This document shows, in pieces, positions 32,548-51,557 of a DNA stretch of 64,000 nucleotides; the stretch's first letter is position 1; each line of letters begins with the position of its first letter. The position numbers and the translations under genes were made by a program. Source of the DNA: Paenibacillus sp. FSL R5-0766 (GTDB taxonomy: Bacteria > Bacillota > Bacilli > Paenibacillales > Paenibacillaceae); NCBI RefSeq assembly GCF_037971845.1, contig NZ_CP150227.1:3658001-3722000 (forward strand). The letters run 5' to 3'. The notes below the pieces were generated by a model, which did not search any database, was not told the origin of the DNA, and saw nothing but the letters and a program-made list of their open reading frames with translations.

Positions 32548-32612
32548 ATCGAAAAGGGATACATTTTATTATTGAGCAGGAACAATCTAGTTTAACAGGA
32601 GTGAATCATGTA

Positions 32613-34775: not shown

Positions 34776-34792
34776 ATATGGCGATTATAAAA

Positions 34793-34825
34793 ATTCTCTG
34801 CATTGGTTTAATGCAGGGGATTTTT
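34793..34825 (+). terminator. Terminator after the alpha-galactosidase gene
   Basis: The arm ending TCTCTGCAT pairs with ATGCAGGGGA (G-T pairs) across seven bases, followed by TTTTT. Confidence 0.8.
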
Positions 34826-34837
34826 ATTATACCAGCT

Positions 34838-34911
34838 TATGAAAACGAAATTGTTTTTTCTGAAAACAGTATGGATTATTGAATGAAATCCTACTAGATC
34901 TTCGATATGTC
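34838..34911 (+). promoter_or_regulatory. Shared upstream element 2, before the ABC transporter genes
   Basis: A 74-base stretch aligned end to end with 30808-30879 (TATGAAAA..., TTTTCTGAAAA, GAATGAAA, GATATGTC). Its core TGTTTTTTCTGAAAACA (34852-34868) is a near palindrome. It lies about 50 bp before the permease gene and is a candidate site for the YesN-type regulator. Confidence 0.6.
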
Positions 34912-34959
34912 GCCAAAATAATAATCGTTTTATGATGAGAGAGGAAAGGGGGGAATGAA

Positions 34960-35919: not shown

Positions 35920-35934
35920 GGAGGAGGAACAGAC

Positions 35935-36873
35935 ATGGAAGCATCCGAGCCGACAACTTCTTCCGTCACACCCAAACGACCGAAGATAGGCGCAAAATCT
36001 CCCCAAGACTTGATATTTGACACCTTTGTTTATGTTTTCATTGGAGTCGTTACGATTGCGACGCTATATCCCTTTTTGAATGTACTCGCCATTTCATTCA
36101 ACGATTCCGTAGATACTGTTCGAGGCGGTATTTCTATTTTCCCTAGACAATTCACTCTTGAAAATTATAAGCTCATCTTTAGTTATGAGGGGTTGATCAC
36201 GGGATTCAAAATATCGGTGCTTCGTACTCTAATAGGAACCCTGGCAGGTCTGGTTAGCGGTTCGATGGTTGCTTATACACTTGCTCGTAGAGAGTTTCAG
36301 GGAAGACGATTTGTTTCCGTATTTCTGGCGATCACAATGTATGTGTCGGGCGGTTTGATTCCTAGTTTTATCTTGATTAAGAATCTGGATCTGATCAATA
36401 CGTTCGCAGTGTATATTTTGCCAGGACTCGTAAGCGCCTTCAATATATTCATCATCCGTTCGTTCATTGATGGAATTCCTTATGCTCTGCAAGAATCGGC
36501 CAAGCTTGATGGGGCAAACGATTTCACCATTTACTGGCGTGTCATACTACCGCTCACCAAGCCTGCTCTTGCAACCGTAGCCTTGTTCCTTGCTGTCGGG
36601 CAATGGAATTCCTGGTTTGATACGTACCTTTATAATGGTTCCAATGACTCCCTGACCACCTTGCAGTATGAGCTCATGAAAGTGCTTCAGAGTACCACCA
36701 CAAACTCGAACAATATACGTGGGGAAAACATGTCTCAATTGATGTCGCAAGTGTCTCCTGACGCTGTCAAAATGGCGATTACCATCATCGCAACTGTGCC
36801 TATTCTCATTGTGTACCCATTCTTGCAAAAGTACTTTGTAAAAGGCATGACACTAGGTGCGGTCAAAAGCTGA
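35935..36873 (+). CDS. Sugar ABC transporter permease, YtcP type
   Basis: A 312-residue permease with six transmembrane segments, the EAA loop (ALQESAKLDGANDFTIYWRVILPLTKPALAT) and the typical C-terminus PFLQKYFVKGMTLGAVKS. It pairs with the LplB-type permease to form the membrane channel. TAAGGAGGAGG immediately after the preceding stop serves as its ribosome binding site. Same operon and role as its neighbour. Confidence 0.94.
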   Translation: MEASEPTTSSVTPKRPKIGAKSPQDLIFDTFVYVFIGVVTIATLYPFLNVLAISFNDSVDTVRGGISIFPRQFTLENYKLIFSYEGLITGFKISVLRTLIGTLAGLVSGSMVAYTLARREFQGRRFVSVFLAITMYVSGGLIPSFILIKNLDLINTFAVYILPGLVSAFNIFIIRSFIDGIPYALQESAKLDGANDFTIYWRVILPLTKPALATVALFLAVGQWNSWFDTYLYNGSNDSLTTLQYELMKVLQSTTTNSNNIRGENMSQLMSQVSPDAVKMAITIIATVPILIVYPFLQKYFVKGMTLGAVKS

Positions 36874-36938
36874 TGAGACTCTAACCGTAAATGACTTTGT
36901 ATCCTTAAATTATCTGAAACATGGGGAGTGTTGTTTTT

Positions 36939-38618
36939 ATGAGAAAGCGAACCCGAAAAACAGCAGTAACACTACTTTCAGCTGGTCTGTTGCTCAGTCA
37001 GCTCGCAGCCTGCAGTGGAAGTGGTGGTGGGGAATCAGCAAGTCAAGATGGCTCAAATCCTATCACACTTACTTATTTTTCAGAGGATGGAAGTCCTAAC
37101 TGGAACAATATGAATGACCGTATAGGAAAAGTCATCACAGAGAAAACAGGTGTCGTTTTGGATGCTGAATTCGCAGTGGGGGACCCTGTGCAAAAGGTAT
37201 CCATCATGGCTGCCACTGGTGAAGTTCCCGATCTCATAGCTGCTAAGGCTGATCTTGGCAAGCTAGTGGATGTAAGTGCAGTTCTCGATCTGACGGACTT
37301 GATTGAAGAACATGCGCCTAATATTAAAAAGATGCTTGGCGATAAGATTGTTCGTGCCAAATATAGTTTGGAGGATCAAGCCATCTATGCCATTCCGACT
37401 TGGTCTGCTATCGATGAACGTAAATTCAAAGCCGACGGTGGCTTCCAACTTCAACATCGTGTTGTAAAAGAAGCTGGTTATCCTGAAATTCGTACGGTAA
37501 AGGACTACGAGAAGGTCCTTACAGACTATATAGCTAAACACCCAACAGATGATAACGGTAACAAAAATATCGGACTAACCATTAATGCCGATGATTGGCA
37601 TATGTATCAGGTGACGAACATGGGATTTTTTACGACAGGTGCACCGGATGATGGAGAGTACTATGTGGACCAAGAAACTTTTGATGTAACTTATCATTTC
37701 CGCCGTCCAGAGGAAAGAGAATATTTCCGCTGGCTGAACCATATGAACGACATAGGTTTATTGGATAAGGAAAGTTTTGTCCAAAAGACGGATCAATTCA
37801 AATCCAAGGTTTCATCTGGGCGTGTGCTTGGCCTGATCGACCCTGCATGGGACTATGGTGATGCTCAACAGGCATTGAAGGCTGCAGGGAAATTTGACCA
37901 GACTTACGGTCATTATCCAGTAACGTTGTCTGAAGAGTATAAGGATACTAATTTCTGGTCCGCTGGGTTTGACGGAGGATATGGGATCGCGATTTCCAGC
38001 GAGTGCAAAGATCCTGTGGCTGCAATCAAATTTTTGGATTACCTGGCTTCGGAAGAAGGACAAATTCTGATGAACTGGGGGATCGAAGGACAAGATTACG
38101 TTGTAGAGAATGGAAAAAGAACTGTACCGAATGATGTTCAAGAAAAGATGGACAACGAAGGTAGTGCTTACATGAAGGAATCGGGTCTCGGCCTGTATTG
38201 GAACCTATCGGTTCATTATGGTGACGGAATTAAGGACTCTACAGGCAATTATTATACGAAAACGAACAGTGACCTTTTAACGGCGACCTACAGTGCACAC
38301 GAAAAAGATGCTTTGGCCGCTTACAAAGTCGAGCATTGGAGAGATCTTTTCCCAAAAGAAGAAGAGTTTCCTGAAAGAAAAGCCGGGGCGGTTTACAATA
38401 TTGCTTTGCCAAGCGATAGCCAGGCGACAATATTAATGGCCAAAATGAAGGATATCACATGGAAACGAATTCCCGAAGCAGTAATGGCCAAACCGGAAAA
38501 TTTTGATAAAGTCTGGGATGAGTACATGGCGGAATTGGAAAAGGCTGGAGTGGAAGAGATGGAAGAGGCTTTTGGTCAATATGTGAAAGACCGTGTTAAA
38601 CTGTGGAGCGGTCAATAA
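36939..38618 (+). CDS. Sugar ABC transporter substrate-binding lipoprotein, LplA type
   Basis: A 559-residue lipoprotein with signal and lipobox (LSQLAAC), so it is anchored to the outer face of the membrane. It is a family 1 solute-binding protein (LTYFSEDGSPNWNNMNDRIGK at the start of the mature part; WSAGFDGGYGIAISSECKDP in the second lobe). It captures oligosaccharides for the two upstream permeases. The frame opens earlier at 36921, but the ATG at 36939 follows GGGGAGTG at good distance and gives a proper signal peptide. The substrate is inferred from the surrounding mannanases. Confidence 0.93.
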   Translation: MRKRTRKTAVTLLSAGLLLSQLAACSGSGGGESASQDGSNPITLTYFSEDGSPNWNNMNDRIGKVITEKTGVVLDAEFAVGDPVQKVSIMAATGEVPDLIAAKADLGKLVDVSAVLDLTDLIEEHAPNIKKMLGDKIVRAKYSLEDQAIYAIPTWSAIDERKFKADGGFQLQHRVVKEAGYPEIRTVKDYEKVLTDYIAKHPTDDNGNKNIGLTINADDWHMYQVTNMGFFTTGAPDDGEYYVDQETFDVTYHFRRPEEREYFRWLNHMNDIGLLDKESFVQKTDQFKSKVSSGRVLGLIDPAWDYGDAQQALKAAGKFDQTYGHYPVTLSEEYKDTNFWSAGFDGGYGIAISSECKDPVAAIKFLDYLASEEGQILMNWGIEGQDYVVENGKRTVPNDVQEKMDNEGSAYMKESGLGLYWNLSVHYGDGIKDSTGNYYTKTNSDLLTATYSAHEKDALAAYKVEHWRDLFPKEEEFPERKAGAVYNIALPSDSQATILMAKMKDITWKRIPEAVMAKPENFDKVWDEYMAELEKAGVEEMEEAFGQYVKDRVKLWSGQ

Positions 38619-38651
38619 GTATTCAATTGAGAATAGACAGAAAGGCAGGAT

Positions 38652-39617
38652 ATGATGAGATCGATACCTTGCAATCCTAATGCATCGGAAGAAGTACGTT
38701 CTGTGCTCAACTATTTCCACGAGATTCAAGGGACTGGCATCATTACGGGACAGCACACCCAAACCATGGCGCAAGAGGAATTAAACTACATCTATCAAGT
38801 AACAGGGAAGTGGCCGGCACTATGCGGATTCGAGCTTCTTGGGTATTCTCCAAACATTAATTATGAAAATAGCGGCGAAGAGTGTTTGCTGGAAGTTGCT
38901 GAAAACCAGGATACGCTGCAAAAAGCTTGGGAGTGGACGGAGAACAACAGAGGCTTGCTTACGTTCACATGGCATTGGTTTTCACCGCTTGGTGGACGGG
39001 ATAAAAGCTTCTATTCGGAGCATACAAATTTTAACGTAAGTAAAGCGATTACGGAAGGAACCATAGAATATGAAGCCCTGTTGTCCGATATGGACCATAT
39101 GGCCAATATCCTCCGGGAATTTTGCGACAAACGTATTCCGATCTTGTGGAGACCATTTCATGAAGCGGAAGGCACTTGGTTCTGGTGGGGTAGTCAAGGC
39201 CCGGAAATCGCAAAACAATTGTACCGTATCATGTATGAGAGGTATACGCATTATCATAATCTAAATAATTTAATTTGGGTGTGGAACTCACCGTTGGTCG
39301 AAGGTTACGTTGGGGATGACGTGGTTGACATTATTTCCAGGGATATGTATCCCCCAGCTCACCAACATACGGATTTACGTAAGGAATTTGATGAACTGAT
39401 TGGTGTTACACGAACTCCAAAACTTGCTGCTATCGGGGAGATTGGCCCGATTCCGAGTATTAGAAGCTTGTCCACCTCGCGCATCCCGTGGCTGTGGTTT
39501 ATGACATGGTCTCAGGATTTTGGTAGGACGGAGAAGTTTACGACAAAAGAGGAGCTGCGCAGTGCATATCACTGTGACTATGCTATAACATTGGACAAAC
39601 TACCAAAGCTATATTAA
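38652..39617 (+). CDS. Cytoplasmic GH26 mannan-degrading enzyme
   Basis: A 321-residue GH26 enzyme without signal peptide or binding module. The acid/base is E171 in RPFHEAEGTWFWWG and the nucleophile E263 in IGEIGPI; GIITGQHTQTM and LTFTWHWFSP are family motifs. Lack of export and position directly after the importer genes imply that it cuts imported mannooligosaccharides inside the cell. AAAGGCAGGA precedes tandem ATGs at 38652 and 38655. It closes the mannan operon; no GH2, GH113 or GH130 partner is encoded here. Confidence 0.92.
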   Translation: MMRSIPCNPNASEEVRSVLNYFHEIQGTGIITGQHTQTMAQEELNYIYQVTGKWPALCGFELLGYSPNINYENSGEECLLEVAENQDTLQKAWEWTENNRGLLTFTWHWFSPLGGRDKSFYSEHTNFNVSKAITEGTIEYEALLSDMDHMANILREFCDKRIPILWRPFHEAEGTWFWWGSQGPEIAKQLYRIMYERYTHYHNLNNLIWVWNSPLVEGYVGDDVVDIISRDMYPPAHQHTDLRKEFDELIGVTRTPKLAAIGEIGPIPSIRSLSTSRIPWLWFMTWSQDFGRTEKFTTKEELRSAYHCDYAITLDKLPKLY

Positions 39618-39845: not shown

Positions 39846-41504
39846 TTATTGAAGTAGCAGAGGTTCGATGGCTATCGCTATGCGGATTCGTAAGCTTTCA
39901 GTTGGATCTTTGAGTTTCACCCCCAGGAGTTTTTCACACTTTTCCAGTCGATACACCACCGTATTTCGATGAACGAAAAGTTGCTTGGATGTTTCGACAA
40001 GCTGGCATTGTGTATCGTAAAAAGCGTTCAGGGTGCGCAGCAACTCTTTTTTTTCATGTTCGTCTGTAATGTGCAGCAATCCGTTTAAGGTCGCGTCATA
40101 AAATTGTTTCAGTTCGTTATGGGGAAGCATGTGGAATAAATATCCGATGTCCTTGGCTTGGTAAGATTGGACAAATTGCTTGCGTTTTAGCCAGTAGCCG
40201 AATTGCAATGCATTAACCGCTTCTGTATAAGAATGACGAACGCCGAGTACATTTGTTGCAGGTTTGCCAATGCCGATCGACAGACTCAGTCCAGTCTCAT
40301 GATGCAGCTCTTTAAGCATTCCTGACAGCTGCTCGGTGATTTTTGCCTCATCCCACCCCGACTCAGGGATAGATAGCAGAAGGCAGTAGGTATCATGTTT
40401 GGTAAACATGACGAAGGAATGATCCAACCCACCAAAAAGACGTTTGATGTGCTCGTATTGCTCCTCTTGCTCCGTGATATTATCTCCTTTTGAAGGCGCC
40501 GAACCTTTGTAATTAGGAAATCTTTGATGCATGTGATGTGCCTCGTCATTACGCATGGTCAGCACAACGCTTGCACGCCCCTTAATAAGCCCACATCTCT
40601 TGCCGCGGTTCAGCGCCTCCTGCTCAGAAGTGATATATCCCTCAATCAGATCGGAAAAGAATTCGTTTTTGTGCCTGCGGGAGCGCTCTTTGACAGCCTG
40701 TGATTTGGTCAGCTCCATTCCAATGACGTTGGAGGCCTGCTCAAGCGTCAGACCAAAAAGGCCAGTCCATTGATCGGGCGAATGAAAGGATAACAAATAG
40801 CCTTCGTGGCGGTAAGTTTTTACTGGATATACCAGCATGCAGGAACGCTCTCGGACTGATGGGTTGATGAAGCACAACGAAGTGGGACTCGAAATATCGG
40901 ACAAGTCTTGAAGTGTATTTACAGCGGCTGCAGTGAGTTCAGCAACACTTGTATTCTGGTTGGAAGCAGAGATAGTTTGCCATTTGTAGTTTAACAGGAT
41001 GACTGGGGAGGAGAACAGTTTGGACAGGGAATCGATAATGCTGGAAATTCCTTTGCCGCGCATGATCATCTCGGAGAATTTTTTGTGGATGCTGAGTGCA
41101 TATTGCAGTTCGTCGCTCTTGTTATTCAGAATCACACTGGTCGATCGCTGCAAAATTTCGCCGAGGGATAGACGAACATCGGAAATTTCGATGATGGGAA
41201 ATTCGTTCTGGTCCGCTTCCCAAAGTATTTCATCAGGGATTGGCAGTTCAAAGCGCTTGGTTTTGATGGCCAACCCCGAGCAATGAAGCCGCTGCATGTC
41301 CCTGATTAGTTGAATAAACATCTCTGGCTGCTGCTTCATAAAAAAGCCGTTGGTCAGCAAGAGCTCGTTTGGCCTTAGAAACCGAATGATATCCGGACAG
41401 TCCATAATGTTGACCGTTTGAACCTCACGTACTAGACCCTTATGCCCCGTAATCACTCTGGCATCATCGTAAATGCCGTTTTTCAGCAAATCTGTCAGCA
41501 GCAC
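39846..41504 (-). CDS. PucR-family transcriptional regulator
   Basis: A 552-residue regulator with an N-terminal PucR domain (LLTDLLKNGIYDDARVITG; VNIMDCPDIIRFLRPNELLLTNG), a GGDEF-like middle region and a C-terminal PucR helix-turn-helix (TSKQLFVHRNTVVYRLEKCEKLLG). The frame is open to 41594, but the GTG at 41504 follows AAAGGGATGG and places the PucR domain at the N-terminus. Family members control purine, ureide, amino acid or polyamine catabolism. It is divergent from a cluster of amidohydrolases and an ABC importer and is the likely regulator of them. The effector is unknown. Confidence 0.9.
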   Translation of the reverse strand: MLLTDLLKNGIYDDARVITGHKGLVREVQTVNIMDCPDIIRFLRPNELLLTNGFFMKQQPEMFIQLIRDMQRLHCSGLAIKTKRFELPIPDEILWEADQNEFPIIEISDVRLSLGEILQRSTSVILNNKSDELQYALSIHKKFSEMIMRGKGISSIIDSLSKLFSSPVILLNYKWQTISASNQNTSVAELTAAAVNTLQDLSDISSPTSLCFINPSVRERSCMLVYPVKTYRHEGYLLSFHSPDQWTGLFGLTLEQASNVIGMELTKSQAVKERSRRHKNEFFSDLIEGYITSEQEALNRGKRCGLIKGRASVVLTMRNDEAHHMHQRFPNYKGSAPSKGDNITEQEEQYEHIKRLFGGLDHSFVMFTKHDTYCLLLSIPESGWDEAKITEQLSGMLKELHHETGLSLSIGIGKPATNVLGVRHSYTEAVNALQFGYWLKRKQFVQSYQAKDIGYLFHMLPHNELKQFYDATLNGLLHITDEHEKKELLRTLNAFYDTQCQLVETSKQLFVHRNTVVYRLEKCEKLLGVKLKDPTESLRIRIAIAIEPLLLQ

Positions 41505-41653
41505 ATCGACCCATCCCTTTCTGGAACAAGTTATTTTATTGTTAAGTAATATAACACTACGATCATGTGGAGTAAATATCTTTGGTTTGATCATCCAAGA
41601 TTGCTAATTATTTTTATCCTTTTCATCCAATGATTTCTCATAAGGAGTGAATT

Positions 41654-41707
41654 ATGCTTAAAGTGTTTCCTGCGTGTAATAAAAGCGTACATGAACGGAG
41701 GATGTAA
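41654..41707 (+). CDS. 17-residue mini-ORF overlapping the amidohydrolase start
   Basis: ATG at 41654 follows AAGGAGTGAATT. Its TAA shares one base with the ATG of the next gene (TAATG), so terminating ribosomes could restart there. The peptide is MLKVFPACNKSVHERRM. The following gene has its own CGGAGG. It may be a coupling leader or a chance ORF. Confidence 0.4.
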   Translation: MLKVFPACNKSVHERRM

Positions 41708-42966
41708 TGATTGATCTACTTATCACAGATACGGTGATTTCCGGGGATGAAAGGCGAATGGATGTCGGGATATCCTCAGGCAAGATTTCATTTGTCACGC
41801 CATGCGGGGAAAGGAAAACCGAAGCGTCTCGTGTAGTGCAGGGCAAAGGGGGCTTATTGCTGCCCGGATTCGTCGAGCCGCATATTCATTTGGAAAAAGC
41901 ATATTTGCTGGATTCCATGGATCGGGAGGCGGAGTCTCTCCAGGACGCGATTCAGATAACATCCAAACTGAAAAGTTCGTTCACAAGGGAGGACATGTAT
42001 CATCGCTCGCTGGTTGTCATTCGGGAAGCCGTCAGGAATGGTGTAACCCATATGCGTTGCCATGCAGAGGTTGATCCGGTTCTTGGACTCAGAGCTGTCG
42101 AATCTGCTCTACGTCTCAAACAATCCTTAAAACACCAACTGGATTTACAGGTTGTTGCCTTTCCTCAAGAAGGGGTGTTCAAGAGTCCGGGGACTGCTGA
42201 GTTGATGGAAGAGGCCGTTCGTATGGGAGCCGATGTGATCGGAGGAATCACGTATCAGGATGCAGACCTAGGGGCACACTTGGATTTTGCATTTGCTCTG
42301 GCAGGGAAGTACGGAAAACCACTGGATTTTCACGCGGATTTCTCGGTCGATTCCAACGACCGTGCCGTTGTGGAAATTGCAAGAAGGACCATTGCTGCAG
42401 GAATGCAGGGGCATGTAGCCGCCGGACATGTAACCTCGCTCGGTTCCCTCCCTGAACACGAAGCTTTGGCTATCGGAGAGCTTCTCTGTCTTGCCGGAAT
42501 CAGCGTCATTACGCTGCCGATGACGGACCTCTTTTTGAATGGAAGGGAAGGCTCCGAAGGACATCATAGAGGTCTGACTCCTGTGAAACTGCTGCAGGAT
42601 TGTGGAGTGAATGTGGCAATTGGCGTCAATAATGTGCGCAACCCATTCACGCCGTTTGGCAAAACAGACCCGATTGAGGCTGCCTGGTTATTGGCAATTA
42701 CTTCGTACATGGGCAGCAAACGGGATGCGCTCATCTTGACCAACATGCTGACGCATAACGCGGCACAGGCGTTAGGCATTGAAAACTATGGCATTAAGGT
42801 TGACGCTCCGGCTGATATGGTATTGTTCCGAGAGCGGTCGGAAAGGGAAGTTCTGCTTAATAAACCGGAGGCCCGCACGGTCTGGAAATCGGGATTACAG
42901 GTAGCTTGTACCGACTCAAAACTTTTGGAATTACCGTGGTTGTCGGATGAGATCGAAACAATCTAA
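41707..42966 (+). CDS. Cytosine-deaminase-like amidohydrolase 1
   Basis: A 419-residue amidohydrolase-superfamily TIM barrel close to the cytosine deaminase/AtzC group. Metal ligands HIH in VEPHIHLEKAYL and histidines in MRCHAEVDP, LDFHADFS and AAGHVTSLGSL are present. At the final metal/catalytic aspartate, where relatives have GxDN, it reads GVNNVRNPFTPFG: residue 308 is Asn. It may therefore be inactive, have altered chemistry or act with its neighbour. CGGAGG precedes the ATG. It is 23 bases from amidohydrolase 2 and divergent from the PucR regulator. The substrate is unknown, perhaps a cyclic amidine or amide. Confidence 0.88.
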   Translation: MIDLLITDTVISGDERRMDVGISSGKISFVTPCGERKTEASRVVQGKGGLLLPGFVEPHIHLEKAYLLDSMDREAESLQDAIQITSKLKSSFTREDMYHRSLVVIREAVRNGVTHMRCHAEVDPVLGLRAVESALRLKQSLKHQLDLQVVAFPQEGVFKSPGTAELMEEAVRMGADVIGGITYQDADLGAHLDFAFALAGKYGKPLDFHADFSVDSNDRAVVEIARRTIAAGMQGHVAAGHVTSLGSLPEHEALAIGELLCLAGISVITLPMTDLFLNGREGSEGHHRGLTPVKLLQDCGVNVAIGVNNVRNPFTPFGKTDPIEAAWLLAITSYMGSKRDALILTNMLTHNAAQALGIENYGIKVDAPADMVLFRERSEREVLLNKPEARTVWKSGLQVACTDSKLLELPWLSDEIETI

Positions 42967-42989
42967 TTATGAAGTAAGGGGATGGCGTT

Positions 42990-44210
42990 ATGGAGAAAGG
43001 GTTAACACTCGTAAAAAATGTCAAATGGTCGGAAAACCTGTTTGATCTAACGATTGATCAAACAACAGGACTTATTGTCAGCATTGAGACTGCCGGAACG
43101 GATGCGGATCTCACATCTGTAAATATTGCCGGTAGGGCGACAACCGTCATTGACGCGGACGGGCTCCACTATGTACCGCCAATGGCAGATATGCATACCC
43201 ATCTTGACAAGCATTTTATTGGGGAGCCTTGGAAGTCTTTGCAGCCGTTTGTCACGCTGCCCGGCCAGTTGGAATTTGAGAAAAACATGTTGGGAGAACT
43301 ACCGACCGGGGCGGGAGAACGTGCGAAACGAATGTTGGATTTAATGCTAGCCCAAGGTACAACGGCAATCCGCACACACGTTGACGTGGATCCGCAAATT
43401 GGCCTCTCTCATCTTGAGGAGGTCTTGGAAGTGCGTGAGATGTACCAGGGACGCATCGATATGGAAATTGTGGCGTTTCCCCAGCAAGGCCTGCTTCGAT
43501 CTGACTCCGTTACCGTCATGCGGCAAGCGCTTCGTGCTGGAGCTAACTATGTTGGTGGTGTGGATCCGGCCGGACTGGACCGCCGGGTGGATGCCAGTCT
43601 GGAAGCCATGTTCGAACTTGCGACAGAATTCTCTGCGGGCATCGACTTGCATCTTCATGACCCGAGTCATCTCGGAATATACACGATCAGCCGCTTCGCC
43701 GAACTGACAGAACAAGCCGGTATGTCCGGCCGTACCGCGGTAAGCCATGCCTACTGTTTGGGCCAGGTTGGGGAAACAGAGGTGCGCTCACTCGCGGAAA
43801 GGTTGTGTGCGGCCGGCGCAGCCATCATGACAAGCGTGCCCATTGACAGGCCTATGCCCCCCATCAAACTGTTGATGGAAACGGGAGTGTCCGTGCATAT
43901 CGGTTCCGATAACATTTTGGATTCGTGGAGCCCATTCGGAAATGGCGATATGCTCTCCCGTGGGTCACGTCTCGCTGAAGCATCCGGTTGGGTGGAAGAC
44001 TTCTGGCTGTTAGAAACGTACAAGCTTATATCCAATGCGCCATTAACTCCAAAAGTGGGTGAACGAGGTGCTTTCTCGTTGGTAAATGCCATAAATGCGA
44101 TGCATGCGTTGGCGGCGGCACCTCCACGCGAAGCTGTATTTTCGGGTGGTGTGCTTGTTGGTGGTCGAATGTTTCCGAACAGCAGACAGATGGCAGCCAT
44201 CCATTCGTAA
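42990..44210 (+). CDS. Cytosine-deaminase-like amidohydrolase 2
   Basis: A 406-residue paralogue of the preceding protein with an intact metal site: HTHLDKHFIG (HxH), IRTHVDVDP, IDLHLHDP, AVSHAYCLG and D307 in HIGSDNILDSWSPFG. The superfamily hydrolyses amide, amidine or exocyclic amino groups. AAGGGGATGG precedes the ATG. Co-transcribed with amidohydrolase 1; a terminator follows, before an ABC importer that completes the cluster. The pairing of one complete and one Asp-to-Asn copy suggests a heteromer or consecutive steps, which is inference. Confidence 0.88.
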   Translation: MEKGLTLVKNVKWSENLFDLTIDQTTGLIVSIETAGTDADLTSVNIAGRATTVIDADGLHYVPPMADMHTHLDKHFIGEPWKSLQPFVTLPGQLEFEKNMLGELPTGAGERAKRMLDLMLAQGTTAIRTHVDVDPQIGLSHLEEVLEVREMYQGRIDMEIVAFPQQGLLRSDSVTVMRQALRAGANYVGGVDPAGLDRRVDASLEAMFELATEFSAGIDLHLHDPSHLGIYTISRFAELTEQAGMSGRTAVSHAYCLGQVGETEVRSLAERLCAAGAAIMTSVPIDRPMPPIKLLMETGVSVHIGSDNILDSWSPFGNGDMLSRGSRLAEASGWVEDFWLLETYKLISNAPLTPKVGERGAFSLVNAINAMHALAAAPPREAVFSGGVLVGGRMFPNSRQMAAIHS

Positions 44211-44230
44211 CAATCTTTAATTAAACATGA

Positions 44231-44264
44231 AGCAGCGCATCCTTTTGCAGATGCGTTGCTTTTT
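44231..44264 (+). terminator. Terminator after the amidohydrolase pair
   Basis: AGCAGCGCATC pairs with GATGCGTTGCT across eight bases, followed by TTTT. Confidence 0.88.
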
Positions 44265-44543
44265 GGCATGAAAAGGCTGATCACAGGGCTTATAATACGT
44301 TGCTCAATGCAGTGAATGTTACAATACATAACATTTAAATTTAGACAGGCTTTTCTTTTGGTGTAATAATCCAAATGAAATCATTTTTTTTAGTGAATCA
44401 CACCAATGACTGAGGCTTACTTACATCGTATTATTCATATAAGAACAATTTTAAGTCACATAAACTGACATTAATAGAATAGGAGGGATATTGGAGGAGT
44501 TACACAAACCAAACATCATTGTTACGAACAGGGGGAGAGAGAC
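44265..44543 (+). other. Intergenic promoter region of the second ABC operon
   Basis: No gene is seen. TTGGTGT (44358-44364) and ACACCAA (44400-44406) form an inverted repeat 35 bases apart, a possible operator. Two ribosome-binding-site-like stretches (AGGAGGGAT at 44481 and GGGGGAGAG before 44544) precede the permease. Confidence 0.4.
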
Positions 44544-45476
44544 ATGCGTCGAGGTTTCCATGCAAACCGCATCCAAAACATCAGAAAGCATGGGCTGTTA
44601 TTGATCATGATTTTGCCAGGCATCGTCTATCTGTTCATCAACAATTACTTGCCCATGTTCGGCATTGTGATCGCGTTCAAAGATATCAATTTTGCAAAAG
44701 GAATCTGGGGAAGTGACTGGGTAGGCTTCGATAATTTCGCCTATCTGTTCCAAACACAGGATGCTTGGGTGATTACCCGAAACACGTTACTCTACAACGG
44801 CGCATTTATCGTGCTTGGAACAGTGCTCTCCATAGCTGTGGCCGTATTGTTGAACGAGGTAAAAAAGCGATTTGCCTCCCGACTGTACCAAAGCATCATT
44901 TTGCTGCCCTATCTGATCTCGATGGTCATTGTCGCTTACTTGGTTCTGGCATTGCTCAACGAGGAAAACGGATTCGTCAACCATTACGTGCTTCCTTTGC
45001 TGGGGATTGACCCCGTGTCGTGGTATGCGGATTCCGGTAAATGGCCCTTTATATTAAGTGTCGTATATCTGTGGAAAAACGTCGGTTATACCTGCATTGT
45101 TTATCTGGCCTCAATCGTAGGCATCAGCCAAGAATATTATGAATCCGCTACGCTGGACGGAGCATCCAAGTGGAGGCAAGTCTGGAGCATTACCCTTCCT
45201 CTGCTTAAACCCACGATGGTCATTATGGTACTTCTTGCAGTGGGACGCATCTTCAATTCCGATTTCGGATTGTTCTATCAGGTTCCGCTGAATTCGGGTG
45301 CACTGCAAACGACTACCGATGTCATTGACACATACGTTTATCGTGGTTTGATGACTTTCGGGGATTTCGGAATGTCATCCGCTGCCGGACTGTACCAGTC
45401 CATTGTCGGTTTTCTGTTAGTATTAACGACGAATGCGATCGTTCGTCGCAAAAACCGGGATTTGGCGCTGTTTTAG
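44544..45476 (+). CDS. ABC transporter permease, LplB type
   Basis: A 310-residue permease with six transmembrane segments and the EAA loop YYESATLDGASKWRQVWSITLPLLKP. The N-terminus GLLLIMILPGIVYLFINNYLPMFGIVIAFKDI is the LplB pattern. GGGGGAGAG precedes the ATG. It forms an importer with the next permease and lipoprotein. Family relatives carry oligosaccharides, but the operon context here is amidohydrolases rather than glycosidases, so the cargo is open. Confidence 0.92.
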   Translation: MRRGFHANRIQNIRKHGLLLIMILPGIVYLFINNYLPMFGIVIAFKDINFAKGIWGSDWVGFDNFAYLFQTQDAWVITRNTLLYNGAFIVLGTVLSIAVAVLLNEVKKRFASRLYQSIILLPYLISMVIVAYLVLALLNEENGFVNHYVLPLLGIDPVSWYADSGKWPFILSVVYLWKNVGYTCIVYLASIVGISQEYYESATLDGASKWRQVWSITLPLLKPTMVIMVLLAVGRIFNSDFGLFYQVPLNSGALQTTTDVIDTYVYRGLMTFGDFGMSSAAGLYQSIVGFLLVLTTNAIVRRKNRDLALF

Positions 45477-45493
45477 CTAAGGGGGAGGACAAC

Positions 45494-46375
45494 ATGTATT
45501 CAAATAGGATATATCAAATGGCTGTTCACCTCGTGCTCATCATGATGGGAATCGCTGCAGTGTTTCCGTTTATACTTCTGATCTCCGCTTCCCTAACCGA
45601 GGAACAAGCCATTATCAGGGATGGTTATCGTTTGTTTCCGGCTCAATTCAGCTTCGATGCTTATGTGTATCTGTTTAATCAGTATTCGTTGATTCTGCGG
45701 TCGTATGGAATTACGACGTTCATCACGGTCGTGGGCACGATCGTTGGATTGTTGATCACAACCCTGGTCGCTTATCCGCTATCCAGAAATGTGCTTCCAT
45801 TTCGTTCGTTCCTGTCATTCTTCGTATTTTTCACCCTGCTTTTCAATGGGGGGCTGGTGCCCATGTACTTGGTTTATACGGACCTCTTCCATTTGAAAGA
45901 TACCATCTGGTCGCTAATCATCCCGAATTTACTGACCAACGGGTTCTACATTTTGTTGATGCGCAGTTTCTTTTCCACATCAATTCCCGGCGAAGTCGTG
46001 GAGTCAGCCTATGTGGATGGAGCCAACGAATGGGTTATTTATTGCAAAATCGTTCTCCCGCTTGCTCTCCCAAGCCTGGCAACCATTGGTCTAATGCTCA
46101 TGATCTCGTATTGGAACGATTGGTTTAACGGTCTGATTTTCATCAATGACGGAAGCCTCTACAGCATTCAAAACCTGCTTAATCGAATGTTGTCTGATGT
46201 CCAGTACTTGCAGCAAAACAGTTTGTCTGGCCAGACGGCTGTTGTCTCATCCGTACCTCTTGGCAGTGTGAGAATGGCTATTGCCGTAATCGGCGTGTTG
46301 CCACTGATCGCAGCGTATCCGTTTTTCCAGAAGTTCTTCGTCAAGGGATTGACCATTGGTGCCGTAAAAGGTTAG
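45494..46375 (+). CDS. ABC transporter permease, YtcP type
   Basis: A 293-residue permease, six transmembrane segments, EAA loop (VVESAYVDGANEWVIYCKIVLPLALPSLAT) and C-terminus PFFQKFFVKGLTIGAVKG. AGGGGGAGG directly after the upstream stop serves as its ribosome binding site. Second half of the membrane channel. No ATPase is encoded in the cluster, as is usual for systems sharing an MsmX-type ATPase. Confidence 0.93.
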   Translation: MYSNRIYQMAVHLVLIMMGIAAVFPFILLISASLTEEQAIIRDGYRLFPAQFSFDAYVYLFNQYSLILRSYGITTFITVVGTIVGLLITTLVAYPLSRNVLPFRSFLSFFVFFTLLFNGGLVPMYLVYTDLFHLKDTIWSLIIPNLLTNGFYILLMRSFFSTSIPGEVVESAYVDGANEWVIYCKIVLPLALPSLATIGLMLMISYWNDWFNGLIFINDGSLYSIQNLLNRMLSDVQYLQQNSLSGQTAVVSSVPLGSVRMAIAVIGVLPLIAAYPFFQKFFVKGLTIGAVKG

Positions 46376-46431
46376 TCATGCTTCGTATCCAAGATGTCAC
46401 ATCCAAAAGCAAACATGGGGAGTGAATGAAG

Positions 46432-47925
46432 ATGTTCAGAAAAAGATTGCCTGCGGGTTTCATAAAGGTAATGTCCTTAATTTGCGCGGCCCCTCTATTG
46501 TTGACGGCATGCGGAAGTCCAGACAGTAAGGAGGGAGCAGAACTTGGGCAAGCTTCAGCTACAGACATGTATGAAGTGGTCATGACGTATCCGGCTTTTG
46601 GGGATGTAACAGATGTTAAGGAAATTCAGGAAGCCATCAGTGATATTACAGCAGAAAAGGTAGGCGCCACCGTGAAGCTCTTGCCTGTTAATGGATCGAA
46701 CTATGCCAATCAAATGAACTTGATGCTGGCGGGCAGCGAGAAACTGGATCTGGTGTATACCAGCGTTTGGTTCGGCCTTGAATCCCAAATCGGCAGGGGG
46801 CAGTTACTGCCCATGGACGAATCGTTGAATGAATTCGGTAAAAAGATACGGGAGGCTGTTCCGGAGGAAGCCGCAGAAGCCGGGAAGATGAATGGCGAAA
46901 CATATGGCGTTCCCAGCATTAAAGCTTGGGCACTTTCTCCCAGTTTTGTGATGGACAAAGAGCTTGCCGATAAGCATGATATTGACCTTAGCGCCATAAA
47001 AACCTGGAATGATATCTCTGCTGTATTACAGCGCATCAAGGACAATGAGCCGGGTGTCACGCCGATTGTCAGCTATACCTCGCAGGAAACACCTGGACAA
47101 GCCATGCTGAATTTTGATCCATTGGGAACAGCACCTGGCGTGCTGGATTTTAGCGGGGAGGACTTCACCGTGCAGAATCTTTTTGCGACTTCGCGGTTCT
47201 CCACAATGGCTGACCTGATGCGTGATTGGTACCAAAAAGGTTATTTCAGCAAAGACGTCGCAACGTCACAGGAAACGGGGTCCAATCTGATCAAGGCAGG
47301 CAAAGCCTTCTCGTATATCCGGAATATCAATGAGTGTTACTCGGAATCACTTGCGGCTGGGACTGAACTTGTATGCGTACCTCTTGAGGACTCGTACATG
47401 ACGCGTAATAGCGTAGCTTCCAACATGATGTCTTTGGCAAGGAACAGTGAGCAGCCGGATAAGGCGATTCAAGTATTGGAACTGTTTTACTCGGACGAAG
47501 CAGTCATTAATCTGTTTACCAATGGAATTGAGGGCAAGCATTATGTAAAGCGGGATAATGACCTGATTGGCAAGCCAGAAGGTGTTACTGCAACAGGATA
47601 CGATTCAAACCAATATGCCGTGGGGAACAATTTCCTGTCCTATATATGGGAAGGGAACGATCCTGACATGTGGGAGCAGTTGAGGGGCGAAAACGAGAGT
47701 GCCGTAAAATCAAGGGCGATGGGTTTCAGCTTCGACATCAATCCGGTCAAAACACAAATTACCTCGGTGGCCAACGTCCAAAACCAGTATGATGCAGGCT
47801 TTCAGACAGGAACTTTTGACCCGTCAGAACTGGGTGCTTATCTCGACAAACTAAAGAATGCAGGCGTAGAGAAAATATTGAAGGAAAAGCAAAACCAGTT
47901 AAACCAATGGCTTGAAAATAAATAG
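46432..47925 (+). CDS. ABC transporter substrate-binding lipoprotein
   Basis: A 497-residue lipoprotein with lipobox LLTAC; the mature protein begins with CGSPDSKEG. It is a family 1 extracellular solute-binding protein of the LplA type; the C-terminal FSFDINPVKTQITSVANVQNQY resembles the DUF3502 extension of that group. GGGGAG is nine bases before ATG 46432 and only three before ATG 46426, so the later start is preferred. It delivers the unknown substrate to the two permeases. The family usually binds oligosaccharides, so a sugar-linked heterocycle is one possible cargo, which is inference only. Confidence 0.9.
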   Translation: MFRKRLPAGFIKVMSLICAAPLLLTACGSPDSKEGAELGQASATDMYEVVMTYPAFGDVTDVKEIQEAISDITAEKVGATVKLLPVNGSNYANQMNLMLAGSEKLDLVYTSVWFGLESQIGRGQLLPMDESLNEFGKKIREAVPEEAAEAGKMNGETYGVPSIKAWALSPSFVMDKELADKHDIDLSAIKTWNDISAVLQRIKDNEPGVTPIVSYTSQETPGQAMLNFDPLGTAPGVLDFSGEDFTVQNLFATSRFSTMADLMRDWYQKGYFSKDVATSQETGSNLIKAGKAFSYIRNINECYSESLAAGTELVCVPLEDSYMTRNSVASNMMSLARNSEQPDKAIQVLELFYSDEAVINLFTNGIEGKHYVKRDNDLIGKPEGVTATGYDSNQYAVGNNFLSYIWEGNDPDMWEQLRGENESAVKSRAMGFSFDINPVKTQITSVANVQNQYDAGFQTGTFDPSELGAYLDKLKNAGVEKILKEKQNQLNQWLENK

Positions 47926-47941
47926 AAGGAGCTGATCACGT

Positions 47942-48904
47942 ATGTTTAATCCTGTCATTGATGTTCACCACCATATCATCTCTAAAGAAATGCAACGAAA
48001 GCAGCGGGAGCTGGGAATGGAGATTCCAAGTTTTATGCCAAAGTGGACGCCCGAGATCGGGATGCAAAAAATGGATGTATGTGACATCTCATTTTCATTT
48101 CTTTCAGCCCCGTCAGATCTGACGTTCATTGACCAATCGTCTGCCAACGCATTGGCACGTAAAATGAATGAAGAGCTTGCATCGTATGCTCAACTTCATC
48201 CTGAGCGGTATGGTGCGTTTGCAACGCTTCCACTCCCGGATCCCGCAGCAGCCATGGAAGAAACCTTGTATGCTCTTGATGTTCTCGGGATGGATGGTGT
48301 TGCAATACTAACAAGTTATCAGGGGAAATATTTAAGCCATCCAGATTACACCGAATTGTTAACCGAATTGGATCGACGCAGTGCTGTTGTGTTTCTACAT
48401 CCCATCCTCATACCGCAAAAAATCGCTGGGCTTAGTCCTGCACTACTTGAGGGCACATTCGATACGACGCGGGCCGTTACTACCATGGCTGTTCATCGCA
48501 TTTTCGACCAATACCCATCCATTACGTTCATTCTCCCCCATACAGGGGGCATGGTGCCGTATATCAAATGGAGAATTGCACTTGCCGCCATCGGGCAAGA
48601 TTCGATTCAGGTTGAAACAACACCGGAACAATTTCAAGCTGAAATAGCCAAATTGGACCACCTTTATTATGATTCCACGTTGAACCTCGGCACAATCCAA
48701 AAGTTGATTGCGCCTGATCGGATTCTGTTCGGAGCGGACATACCTTGGCCAGCGGACAGCGTCCTTCGTATACAGCGGGAGTCGGTATTCCATGAAGCAC
48801 AGCAGATCAGCGAAGAAAACGCGAAGGCGATCGCTTATGGCAATGCCTTTCGTCTATTTCCCCGCATTTCCAAGCTTTTTGATATAGAGAAAAAGTTAAT
48901 TTAA
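47942..48904 (+). CDS. Amidohydrolase-2 (ACMSD-like) enzyme
   Basis: A 320-residue TIM-barrel metal enzyme of the amidohydrolase-2 family, which holds decarboxylases such as ACMSD and lactone hydrolases. Metal ligands are seen in VIDVHHHIIS, VFLHPILIP and ILPHTGG, with the catalytic Asp in FGADIPWP. AGGAG lies about ten bases before the ATG. It ends the ABC operon and is followed by a terminator. It probably acts on a product of the two upstream amidohydrolases; the reaction, decarboxylation or ring hydrolysis, cannot be decided. Confidence 0.9.
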   Translation: MFNPVIDVHHHIISKEMQRKQRELGMEIPSFMPKWTPEIGMQKMDVCDISFSFLSAPSDLTFIDQSSANALARKMNEELASYAQLHPERYGAFATLPLPDPAAAMEETLYALDVLGMDGVAILTSYQGKYLSHPDYTELLTELDRRSAVVFLHPILIPQKIAGLSPALLEGTFDTTRAVTTMAVHRIFDQYPSITFILPHTGGMVPYIKWRIALAAIGQDSIQVETTPEQFQAEIAKLDHLYYDSTLNLGTIQKLIAPDRILFGADIPWPADSVLRIQRESVFHEAQQISEENAKAIAYGNAFRLFPRISKLFDIEKKLI

Positions 48905-48921
48905 AGTGACAGCAAACGATA

Positions 48922-48954
48922 AAAAGCAGCCGATCAGCGTGATCGGCTGCTTTT
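48922..48954. terminator. Terminator of the amidohydrolase/ABC cluster
   Basis: AAAAGCAGCCGATCA pairs with TGATCGGCTGCTTTT across three bases. The stem resembles the one at 27176-27207. Confidence 0.92.
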
Positions 48955-49167: not shown

Positions 49168-49650
49168 ATGATCTCAAAAGATCGAACAAAACAGTTGCTT
49201 TATGACCAATTTATACGTTTTTTACATGTGTATGAGAACCACAAGGATAAAGAAATCGAGCATTTCCTAAGTATCGCCCAGCGTGAAAGCATCGAGAAAA
49301 TCCCTCAGCATTTGACCGCGGTTCATATGATAGATTGCATAGGCAAGCATGAGCCTATTAACAACACGGGTATTGCTGAGGCGATGAATTTGTCCAAAGC
49401 AAGTATCACCAAAATTGGCAACAAACTGCTCGAGGAAGGATTCGTCAAACGTACAAAAATGAACGACAACAAAAAGGAAAGCTATTTCCGGTTGTCACCG
49501 CAAGGTAAAAAAATCTTTGAACTGCATGAACGTCTGCATATACATGAGGCTGAGCGCTTCTATCGTACTCTCGACAAATATTCGGAAGCGGAGCTAAAAG
49601 TAATCCATCAATTTCTTCAAGACAGCAGTATAAATATTGAATCCAGATAG
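49168..49650 (+). CDS. MarR-family transcriptional regulator
   Basis: A 160-residue regulator with a winged helix (LTAVHMIDCIGKHEPINNTGI, AEAMNLSKASITKIGNKLL; wing around KRTKMNDNKKESYFRLS) typical of MarR proteins. AAGGAG precedes the ATG. It heads an operon with two nitroreductase-like proteins and probably represses it in response to a redox-active or aromatic compound. The upstream region has GTAAAC (49083) and GTTTAC (49138) half-sites. Confidence 0.9.
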   Translation: MISKDRTKQLLYDQFIRFLHVYENHKDKEIEHFLSIAQRESIEKIPQHLTAVHMIDCIGKHEPINNTGIAEAMNLSKASITKIGNKLLEEGFVKRTKMNDNKKESYFRLSPQGKKIFELHERLHIHEAERFYRTLDKYSEAELKVIHQFLQDSSINIESR

Positions 49651-49670
49651 AACAAAGGAGAGTGAAGCAT

Positions 49671-50246
49671 TTGAGTCTGGCGGAATTGATCAGGGAGCGC
49701 AGGAGTATTCGTAAATGTAACTCTACGCCGGTGGACCAGGAGTTAATTGTAGCATTACTGCGTAAGGCTATGAGGCTTCAACCATTGGTTGAGTCTGGCT
49801 CGTGGCGTGTAGTATATGCCGGAACTCCAGAAGCTCGCAAACGGTTGGTGGACTGCATGCTGGAACAGATGTCACAAAGCAAGCTCGGCAAGTTGATTCC
49901 AGGGAAACTTCTGGATGTTTTTAAAAAGAGATTTACCGATATTCCTGCCCACGTCATTGTTATGTCCACTGTAGGACCGAATCGTCTGACCAATGATCGC
50001 AATTATGCGGCTGCCTGCGGGGTGATGCAGAGCTTCCAACTGTTGGGCTGGGAACGAGGGTTAGGAATGTTATGGGATACAGAGTCCATGATTCAGCATG
50101 AAGCATTCTTCAATGGAATTGGCTTACGTGAGGATGAAAGATTTGTTGGTATTCTTCATATAGGATATTACGACAAAGCGCCAAGAAGTCGGAAAAGAAC
50201 ACCAGCCGAGCAGAAATGGACCGTATTGCGAGGACAGTCTACATAG
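49671..50246 (+). CDS. Nitroreductase-family protein A
   Basis: A 191-residue protein of the FMN-dependent nitroreductase fold. The N-terminal RERRSIRKC motif, which contacts FMN phosphate in the family, is present. The usual PxxxNxQPW(R/K)F segment is replaced by LVESGSWRVV, lacking the Gln-Pro. A TTG at 49671, ten bases after AAAGGAG, is the likely start; a GTG at 49662 is too close to that site. Co-transcribed with the MarR gene (20 bases apart) and protein B (16 bases apart). It may need protein B to complete an active site. Confidence 0.78.
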   Translation: MSLAELIRERRSIRKCNSTPVDQELIVALLRKAMRLQPLVESGSWRVVYAGTPEARKRLVDCMLEQMSQSKLGKLIPGKLLDVFKKRFTDIPAHVIVMSTVGPNRLTNDRNYAAACGVMQSFQLLGWERGLGMLWDTESMIQHEAFFNGIGLREDERFVGILHIGYYDKAPRSRKRTPAEQKWTVLRGQST

Positions 50247-50262
50247 AAGAGGAGGATATAAA

Positions 50263-50748
50263 ATGAAATTGTCAGATCTGGAAGGAGTCATGGGCGGTCC
50301 GAGTGAGTTTTTGGAACAACCGGTATCGCACGACCTCATCCTTGAATTGCTTAATCATGCCGTATGGGCGCCAAATGATGGACTCCGAGAGCCGTGGCGA
50401 TTTATCTTTGCCGATAACCGGTATGGGGACATCATGCAGGGATTACAGGAGCCTGCCCCTGCATATCTTCTGGTCTTGGTGAAGGAAGAGGCGGATCAAT
50501 ATAAGCGAGAAGAGGACTTTGCAGCTGTCTGCTGCCTAATTCAGAATTTCCGCTTGCTGGCTCATGAGCAAAGTCTGGGTGTGCGCTGTACCTTGCATGA
50601 CTGGATGTACGATTCGAGCCGTACTGAAATGTTTGGTGTACTGAGTAACGAGCGCATTGCTGCGGTTCTGGAATTGGGATACGGTGCAAATCAGTGGAAA
50701 GGGAATACGGAGTTACCTGAGACTCAACTTCATTTTGAACTGCTGTAG
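50263..50748 (+). CDS. Nitroreductase-family protein B
   Basis: A 161-residue short nitroreductase-like protein. The segment HAVWAPNDGLREPWRFIFAD matches the family's APSxxNxQPWRF region, while the N-terminal RRSxR motif of protein A is missing (VMGGPSEFLEQPVS instead). The C-terminal half (AAVCCLIQNFRLLAHEQSLGVRC) aligns with the usual helix. AGAGGAGG precedes the ATG. A and B each keep the half that the other has lost, which suggests a heterodimer with one composite FMN site. Confidence 0.75.
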   Translation: MKLSDLEGVMGGPSEFLEQPVSHDLILELLNHAVWAPNDGLREPWRFIFADNRYGDIMQGLQEPAPAYLLVLVKEEADQYKREEDFAAVCCLIQNFRLLAHEQSLGVRCTLHDWMYDSSRTEMFGVLSNERIAAVLELGYGANQWKGNTELPETQLHFELL

Positions 50749-50779: not shown

Positions 50780-51557
50780 TCATAACTGATTGAGCTTGTT
50801 TTCAGGCTCCTCACCATTTTCTACACGTTTTATATTCTTTATAAAGAAATCATATCTTGTTTTATGAAATTTCCGACCATCAGGCATTCCCGCTGTATGG
50901 GGAGTAAGTATCACATTACCCAGATTCCGGAGTTCACTATCAATAGGAAGCGGTTCAGATTCAAACACATCCAGGCATGCGCCTGAAATATCCCCGTTTT
51001 TTAATGCATCAATCAAATCTCTTTCGTTGACAATGCCGCCGCGGGCTGTATTGATAAAAAGAGCGGTATTTTTCATTTTTTTGAATGTCGCTTTGTTAAT
51101 TAGCTGTTTAGTTTGTTCATTCAAGGGTACATGTACACTAACTATGTCCGATGTACTTACAAGAGTATCAAAATCCGTCTTTTTCACAAAATCGTCCGAT
51201 TGTACAGTGGCATTTCTTGCATACGCCAGCACATTCATATCAAAAACCCTGCAAAACGCAGCTACTTTTTTTCCAATTGCACCCAAACCGATAATCCCAA
51301 TCGTTTTTCCCTTTAACTCACTCCCTGTATAGTCCAATTGATTTTCATCCATCTTATTTTTCATGAAAGTATCAAGAAACGGTATGTTTTTATAATAAGA
51401 CAATATCAGTGCCATGACATGCTCGGCCACTGCCTGTGCATTCACTCCTGCAGCATTGGCCGGGCGGAACAATTACAACGTTCCAGTCTTGCGGAAAACT
51501 CCCTGCAATATTGGATTTTGAGGTCTCGCTAAAATTGCCAACCATGAGAATTTTCAT
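50780..51557 (-). pseudogene. D-2-hydroxyacid dehydrogenase, internally deleted
   Basis: The 230-residue downstream frame (50780-51472) has the NAD-binding domain of D-isomer-specific 2-hydroxyacid dehydrogenases: IGIIGLGAIGKKVAAF, the Arg in NTARGGIVNE, Glu in DVFESEPLP and His in LTPHTAG. The start codon and first 32 residues (MKILMVGNFSETSKSNIAG, ending NVVIVPP) lie at 51557-51460 in another frame, with AAGGTGG upstream. At about 51465-51475 the two halves join directly, and some 55-60 residues of the substrate domain are absent. A deletion with frameshift has inactivated the gene. Confidence 0.85.

Follow-up and report, generated by a model that had tools for sequence, protein, structure and literature searches.

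A conserved, apparently PucR-controlled importer and amidohydrolase unit in Paenibacillus sp. FSL R5-0766, most likely for a ring compound of the imide or ureide kind

Which compound is taken up and degraded by a gene cluster in which a PucR-family regulator adjoins three amidohydrolase-type enzymes and a solute importer? The question is raised by positions 39846-48904 of a 64,000-nucleotide stretch of the genome of the soil bacterium Paenibacillus sp. FSL R5-0766 (NZ_CP150227.1, 3,658,001 to 3,722,000), hereafter the window. In the list of open reading frames (ORFs) of the window, this interval consists of a single gene on the minus strand (39846-41594) and six on the plus strand (41707-48904), here named PucR, A1, A2, TM1, TM2, SBP and A3. 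A sequence-only reading had placed seven genes here; all were recovered at exact coordinates and Pfam confirmed their families (PucR, GGDEF_2 and HTH_30 in the regulator; Amidohydro_3 twice; BPD_transp_1 twice; SBP_bac_1 and DUF3502; Amidohydro_2). They form a conserved, apparently locally regulated and predicted catabolic unit, whose ring compound is most likely an imide or ureide; one of the enzymes comes from an uncharacterised amidohydrolase subfamily with an unusual active site. The unit probably imports a nitrogen-rich ring compound and breaks it down hydrolytically, and we tentatively see it as a local PucR regulon scavenging an imide- or ureide-type ring (hydantoin-, oxidised-purine- or triazinone-like). 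Of this picture, the sequences support the conservation of the unit and of a palindrome at its two promoters, the residue signature of A1, the AtzC-like residues of A2 and the occurrence of relatives near ureide genes.

An A1-like match was present in 152 of 197 related genomes; among the matches listed, most were about 30-37% identical, and nine other genomes carried an A1 with 77-97% identity. These nine were used as the syntenic set, and the seven-gene order was retained in every one of them. The neighbourhood survey thus bore out the view that the genes form a unit, as they co-occur in the same order in the close relatives.

A1 (41707-42966, plus strand) encodes a 419-amino-acid amidohydrolase of the CodA/AtzC fold, belonging to an Asn-Asn subfamily. 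The closest solved structures were CodA (1k6w) and 5-methylcytosine deaminase (2.5e-52), and the A1 model (mean pLDDT 92.7) superposed on 5-methylcytosine/cytosine deaminases with a TM-score of about 0.91. Compared with E. coli CodA (L139; residue numbers include the initiator Met), A1 shares the HxH motif, two further His and the Gln156 equivalent, but has F212 for Glu217, N308 for Asp313 and N309 for Asp314 (N308-N309 at 42628-42633), besides D274 (42526-42528) for a beta7 Asn; Thr66 is replaced by K64 and an Asp by E121. In an alignment of 48 A1 proteins, N308 and N309 were present in all, D274 in 47 and F212 in 46; Glu at the CodA Glu217 position was found in 0/48, and HxH, both further His, the Lys and the Gln were invariant. 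The 48 were our own choice from 81 A1 genes (that of the window plus 80 named loci); among the remaining 33 are near-duplicates, fragments and ORFs whose start is uncertain, and the residue comparison omits L143 and L146. The same N308/N309/D274/F212 set was carried by 7/7 A1-type proteins of plasmid records, and six more distant relatives in a separate alignment retain the Asp. The pattern suggests that an Asp has moved from beta8 to beta7 in A1.

Because beta8 Asp is replaced by Asn in all, and beta7 Asn by Asp in 47, of the 48 aligned subfamily members, A1 appears unlikely to be a cytosine deaminase, and a plain cytosine deaminase was ruled out on residue comparison. A1 also reached no NCBIfam cut-off, the best score being 278.7 of 408 for an amidohydrolase model, with 240.5 of 438 and 217.5 of 483 for cytosine deaminase models. 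A1 and A2 could still be conventional deaminases acting on cytosine, creatinine, pterin or a similar base, serving salvage or nitrogen scavenging by known chemistry, as the nearest structures of A1 would imply. We consider this unlikely: the three CodA residues are missing, the deaminase cut-offs were missed, the reductive pyrimidine genes of this genome lie in another cluster, and a second A1 relative (31% identity) is encoded elsewhere, at 3484596. Earlier wording of 'two cytosine-deaminase-like enzymes' masks what matters most: A1 lacks Glu217, Asp313 and Asp314 and A2 is AtzC-like.

Would an enzyme with Asn at the beta8 position still be active? In the available text of PMC4577212, AtzC D303N has a kcat of 90.4 per s against 26.2 per s for the wild type, H219A is active and H249A is dead; the same text gives the correspondence between AtzC and CodA, with Lys65, Gln160 and Asn304 of AtzC contacting the docked ring. 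By alignment via A2, K64, Q154 and N309 of A1 equal these three AtzC residues rather than Thr66 and Asp314 of CodA. A1 also retains the His249 equivalent, differing from AtzC by Asn at Asp303 and by the lack of His219. Since AtzC D303N is active, Asn at this position need not abolish activity in A1. In A1, three His would then bind the metal; His241, which corresponds to AtzC His249, would serve as the essential base, and an Asn would stand where the beta8 Asp normally is. That A1 is instead a conserved pseudoenzyme or a regulatory partner of A2 would agree with the universal beta8 Asn, the absent Glu and the presence of A2 in 44 of the 80 A1 loci. It is nevertheless very improbable, given the invariant HxH, His, Lys and Gln, the activity of AtzC D303N and H219A and 13 of 15 AllFGH loci in which A1 occurs without A2. 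Searches of an open-access library listed no paper on the A1 subfamily or on the seven-gene unit.

The second enzyme, A2 (42990-44210, plus strand, 406 amino acids), was compared with AtzC, the N-isopropylammelide isopropylaminohydrolase (2qt3, 4cqb), and with 6nbo. It keeps the equivalents of all ten AtzC residues compared (alignment to 2qt3): His60, His62, Lys65, Gln160, His217, His219, His249, Asp303, Asn304 and Trp309. A2 is thus a predicted AtzC-like aminohydrolase; one further A2 relative above 150 bits is encoded in the genome. Two minus-strand ORFs overlapping A2 (133 and 207 amino acids) were regarded as chance.

A3 (47942-48904, plus strand, 320 amino acids) is an Amidohydro_2 protein (PF04909 101.1 bits, cut-off 26.4) resembling gamma-resorcylate decarboxylase and ACMSD, so its description as an ACMSD-like enzyme holds. 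Its nearest PDB entries were 2f6k (a metal-dependent hydrolase by name), 2dvt and 2wm1, covering gamma-resorcylate decarboxylase and ACMSD, and uracil-5-carboxylate decarboxylase was among the matches; NCBIfam gave no match. The translation has HxH and the His of FLHP, the His of LPHTGG and the Asp of FGADIPW, residues which we take to be the criteria for ACMSD/PF04909. Among the 80 A1 loci, A3 was present in the six CUT1-type loci and in none of the other 74.

The neighbourhoods of A1 relatives point towards ureides. A scan of species genomes with a 12-protein A1 alignment yielded 449 stretches with 406 relatives, and the results are from the best 80 of these; the loci span up to 10 kb per side (5/80 are under 15 kb), and genes were assigned by best match to representative proteins. 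In L077, L106, L109, L123 and L127 A1 was found by tblastn and no A1 ORF was picked. PucR was present in 51 of the 80 loci, A2 in 44, AllFGH in 15, carbamate kinase in 11, an AtzF-like amidase in 5, GGT in 4 and AllD in 2; solute-binding proteins were of NMT1 type in 19, HAAT type in 11, Dpp type in 7 and CUT1 type in 6. The 44 loci with A2 divided into NMT1 (19), HAAT (10), CUT1 (6) and Dpp (4), with no importer seen in five. In Enterococcus faecalis (L141), FdrA, a DUF2877 (AllH-type) protein, carbamate kinase, AllD (695.8 bits, cut-off 496.2), A1 and a helix-turn-helix regulator lie together. In Rhizobium sp. (L145), an importer annotated as CUT1-type is accompanied by two isochorismatase-family hydrolases, AtzF (above cut-off), an A2-like gene, GGT and A1, and L150 holds the same kinds of genes inside about 20 kb. 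The L145 hydrolases score 276.0 and 103.9 bits against the BiuH model; as both are below the cut-off of 370, neither is called BiuH. The GGT of L145 has a match in each of the two chains of 5hft, which we take to be the oxamate amidohydrolase HpxW (160.3 and 173.4 bits; the best single chain scores 200.6), and the GGTs adjoining A1 in L133, L142, L145, L146 and L150 are 51-68% mutually identical. In R. lusitanum (L143) A2-like and A1 genes are adjacent, and about 5 kb away lies a racemase whose nearest matches are putative hydantoin racemases and the allantoin racemase 5lfd. In L140 an 8-oxoguanine deaminase (624.5 bits, cut-off 532) stands between the A2-like gene and A1. In the tree, the window A1 falls into a 32-row clade (100/99) that also contains L081, L097 and L099, and the six alphaproteobacterial plasmid rows form one clade (100/100).

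Several A1 loci showed other arrangements. L042, L044, L045, L051 and L053 combine a second A1 type with A2 and two more A2-like genes, with no PucR match in 20 kb and a Dpp-type importer adjoining (by eye, L042); both A1 types are present in G026, G027 and G065. In Cohnella (L115, L122, L124, L125), A1 and PucR occur with TRZ/ATZ amidohydrolases near RidA-like genes, together with XdhC (L122, L124, L125), a Rieske oxygenase (L115, L122) or a BMP lipoprotein (L115), which is another nitrogen-ring degradation set. A family of membrane-protein-like sequences of about 450 amino acids lies near A1 in L110, L112, L117, L118, L120, L126, L127, L129, L131, L132, L134, L135, L136 and L138; its member from L136 had no Pfam or NCBIfam match, and a hypothetical protein of similar size ahead of A1 in L141 had no Pfam match. 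This family is perhaps a ureide transporter.

Two known systems come closest to these neighbourhoods. One is the oxamic transcarbamylase pathway (AllFGH, AllK): distant relatives of A1 are encoded at AllFGH loci, frequently together with PucR, and AllG is missing from the genome of the window. The other is the triuret/biuret operon of Rhizobium (TrtA, BiuH, AtzF). Operons of R. leguminosarum with these genes are published (PMC7948467, as far as its accessible text goes), and in the accessible part of PMC12625717 AllFGHK and triuret/biuret genes cluster in nitrifiers. We do not equate L145 and L150 with the published operon, none of whose hydrolases occurs in the window unit. A natural s-triazine, for example 5-azacytosine or allantoxanate, deaminated by A2 to an oxo-triazine that A1 opens towards biuret or allophanate, would suit the AtzC residue set of A2 and the Rhizobium loci in which isochorismatase-family (BiuH-like) and AtzF genes adjoin A2-like and A1. 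We hold this to be a long shot, as the Pfam matches of the window unit include neither a biuret nor an allophanate hydrolase and the links to AllFGH, AllD and the 5hft-like GGT favour oxalurate over biuret; no s-triazine pathway is seen in the unit. It is conceivable, though we would call it rather unlikely, that A1 represents a catalytic type new to the amidohydrolase superfamily, with the acidic residue shifted from beta8 to beta7, and that its subfamily is the missing ring-opening step (a parabanate- or 5-hydroxyhydantoin-type hydrolase) from which the oxamic transcarbamylase of fermenting bacteria receives oxalurate or ureidoglycolate. A2 and interchangeable importers would then fit this subfamily for further imide rings, among them the one used by the bacterium of the window.

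How the compound would enter the cell was judged from TM1 (44544-45476; LplB-type permease, PF00528 57.6 bits), TM2 (45494-46375; YtcP-type permease, 52.1 bits) and SBP (46426-47925; solute-binding lipoprotein with DUF3502, PF12010 75.4 and PF01547 34.5 bits), all on the plus strand; the closest PDB entries to SBP were 5swa/5mlt/5suo. LplB/YtcP-type importers consist of two BPD_transp_1 permeases and a solute-binding protein and share their ATPase. The unit fits this CUT1 pattern: no gene for an ATP-binding protein is encoded in it, so the importer must borrow its ATPase and the description of a 'complete' importer had to be dropped. Sharing from elsewhere in the genome is plausible, with 149 matches to a rhizobial UgpC, among them two UgpC/MsmX-like ATPases at 53% and 50% identity.

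The importer had also led to the idea that a sugar-linked nitrogen compound, i.e. an N-glycoside, is imported and hydrolysed. The permeases and the DUF3502 protein do resemble oligosaccharide importers, and the nearest SBP paralogues of the genome adjoin similar permeases, one near an apparent GH3 glycosidase (by eye). However, the unit contains no glycosidase, and the neighbouring GH26 and GH36 genes adjoin it in just one of the nine syntenic loci. At least four importer types, NMT1, HAAT, Dpp and CUT1 (HAAT and Dpp assigned by eye), accompany relatives of the A1/A2 pair. In Rhizobium (L145, L150) CUT1 importers adjoin A1, A2-like, isochorismatase-family and allophanate hydrolase genes, and a sugar-type importer is therefore not evidence of a sugar. 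We regard an N-glycoside as quite unlikely; a sugar-linked substrate, possible in itself, is not needed.

The divergent PucR gene (39846-41594, minus strand) encodes the PucR N-terminal domain, a GGDEF-like domain and a C-terminal HTH_30, all above the Pfam cut-offs (PF07905 96.4 bits, PF13556 69.7, PF17853 50.8), which confirms the regulator as PucR-type. Its true start is probably the GTG at codon 31 (about 41504), 30 codons past the first ATG, because this codon matches where homologues begin. The six plus-strand genes are taken as two transcription units, A1-A2 and TM1-TM2-SBP-A3. Terminator-like hairpins follow A2 (44229-44262, plus strand; -21.9 kcal/mol, z -4.76) and A3 (48922-48954, plus strand; -24.5 kcal/mol, z -6.53), the latter at the end of the second operon. 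A consensus terminator scan lists the hairpin after A3 and omits that after A2; it gave 8 terminators against a shuffle mean of 9.7, i.e. no excess.

A TTGGW-N7-WCCAA palindrome lies upstream of both operons. The candidate PucR operator O1, TTGGTTTGATCATCCAA (41582-41598, plus strand), is 125 bp upstream of A1, with a weaker second copy 32 bp beyond it (41614-41630, plus strand), and O2, TTGGTGTAATAATCCAA (44358-44374, plus strand), is 186 bp upstream of TM1. The window holds these two sites against 0.42 expected, a number reached in 8/100 shuffles; for a stricter pattern 0.02 were expected, a circular figure as this pattern was derived from both sites. In the syntenic loci the exact palindrome was retained upstream of TM1 in 9/9 and upstream of A1 in 7/9. 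In a scan of the region ahead of A1 in 20 loci, the top two matches stood exactly 32 bp apart in 14, CUT1-type and HAAT-type loci included; some of the 14 are near-identical relatives, and the exceptions were L062, L063, L069, L080, L085 and L086. Per-site chance values across the scanned loci ranged from 0.000 to 0.74 and that of the window was 0.025. Precedents in the PucR family, in the available text of PMC7652997, are GabR, which binds two inverted repeats, and PutR, which binds one 17-bp repeat; the B. subtilis PucR site is given there as non-palindromic. The palindrome is thus a good candidate for the PucR operator. Its conservation ahead of A1 and of the transporter suggests a two-operon local PucR regulon, and the proposal that the unit stands under its regulator holds to the extent that both operons appear to be co-regulated. 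As a marker of further pathway genes the palindrome was rejected: of the 44 sites outside the unit, 12 were inspected (the other 32 were not read), and 11 of them lay inside an ORF of at least 100 amino acids.

Other nitrogen clusters of the genome narrow the choice of substrate. A purine cluster at 3.99-4.00 Mb has its own PucR, urate oxidase, allantoinase, an allantoate-amidohydrolase-like protein, an aminotransferase and GGT, and a separate reductive pyrimidine cluster also has its own PucR; allantoin and uracil are therefore unlikely substrates of the unit. Like the unit, the purine cluster carries its own regulator, but its enzymes are different. Five genes of the genome have a PucR domain over the cut-off, and three of them (unit, purine, pyrimidine) adjoin different nitrogen-catabolism clusters. 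None of the 46 genomic palindrome sites falls into the stretch examined for the purine cluster.

On the view that the unit is a local PucR regulon serving an imide- or ureide-type ring, it might work as follows. PucR would sense the compound or a product of it and act at O1 and O2; SBP, the permeases and the borrowed ATPase would import the compound. A2 would strip an exocyclic amine, leaving a fully oxygenated ring, and A1 would open this ring to an open-chain ureide. A3 may decarboxylate or hydrolyse something particular to this version of the unit. The sequence-only reading had left the substrate open, and no existing pathway was found to match the unit; import and stepwise hydrolysis of an unusual nitrogen compound, which we infer as it did, is still the best reading.

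A number of observations weigh against the proposed scheme. That A2 acts before A1 is a guess. Ureide-linked A1 relatives are only about 36-49% identical to the window A1, so that substrates may differ, and none of their ureide partner genes is present in the window unit. AllG had no match in the genome (among 14 control genomes one, E. coli, was positive). A2 and AllFGH occur together in only two of the 80 loci, with A2 only in 42, AllFGH only in 13 and neither in 23. The ureide contexts belong for the most part to A1 clades other than that of the window. In the tree, 10 of 11 AllFGH-linked A1 proteins lie in a separate 16-row clade (100/100), the other being L116, and neither the deep order of A1 clades, nor the placement of A2, nor a single Asn-Asn clade was resolved. 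The Lys is missing from the A2-like proteins of L145 and L150. Two kinds of GGT adjoin A1: the GGTs of L097/L099 are only about 36-38% identical to the L145 kind and 60% identical to the purine-cluster GGT of the own genome, whose best PDB matches are 2nlz and 2i3o, not 5hft. As to the regulon, most of the 46 genomic palindrome sites look like background, since the reversed control gave 26. No convincing palindrome was found upstream of A1 in the three scanned NMT1-type loci (L080, L085, L086), and the best matches to the B. subtilis PucR box were not significant, so that this box was set aside. The palindrome pattern was refined on the same loci in which it was counted, and the site is a candidate only.

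If A1 opens such rings, an old physiological observation would gain a gene. According to the accessible text of PMC11326118, it was not until 2024 that genes were assigned to oxamic transcarbamylase, and a 1965 title cited there states that parabanic acid induces this enzyme in a Streptococcus. The 'cytosine deaminase' or 'amidohydrolase' labels of relatives would then need revision. A natural D-to-N family such as A1 offers a direct test of which superfamily residues catalysis needs, and the Paenibacillus unit is a clean system in which a new scavenged nitrogen source may be found.

Flanking genes were considered as unit members and rejected. To the left, 32601-39617 holds an ordinary galactomannan-type cluster with a GH36 alpha-galactosidase, its own CUT1 permeases and binding protein, and GH26. 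To the right, a MarR regulator is followed by two nitroreductase-family genes (49168-50748), the second of just 161 amino acids; MarR and the nitroreductases adjoin the unit in five of the nine syntenic loci (L031, L032, L033, L035, L036). An ORF for a D-2-hydroxyacid dehydrogenase (50780-51472, 230 amino acids, TTG start) matches the NAD-binding domain in Pfam and not the catalytic domain, and may be truncated. Several unit genes are fragmented in L035 and L036; in L060/L035 (Paenibacillus sp. OVF10) fragmentation extends to many genes of the locus and suggests faulty assembly more than gene decay.

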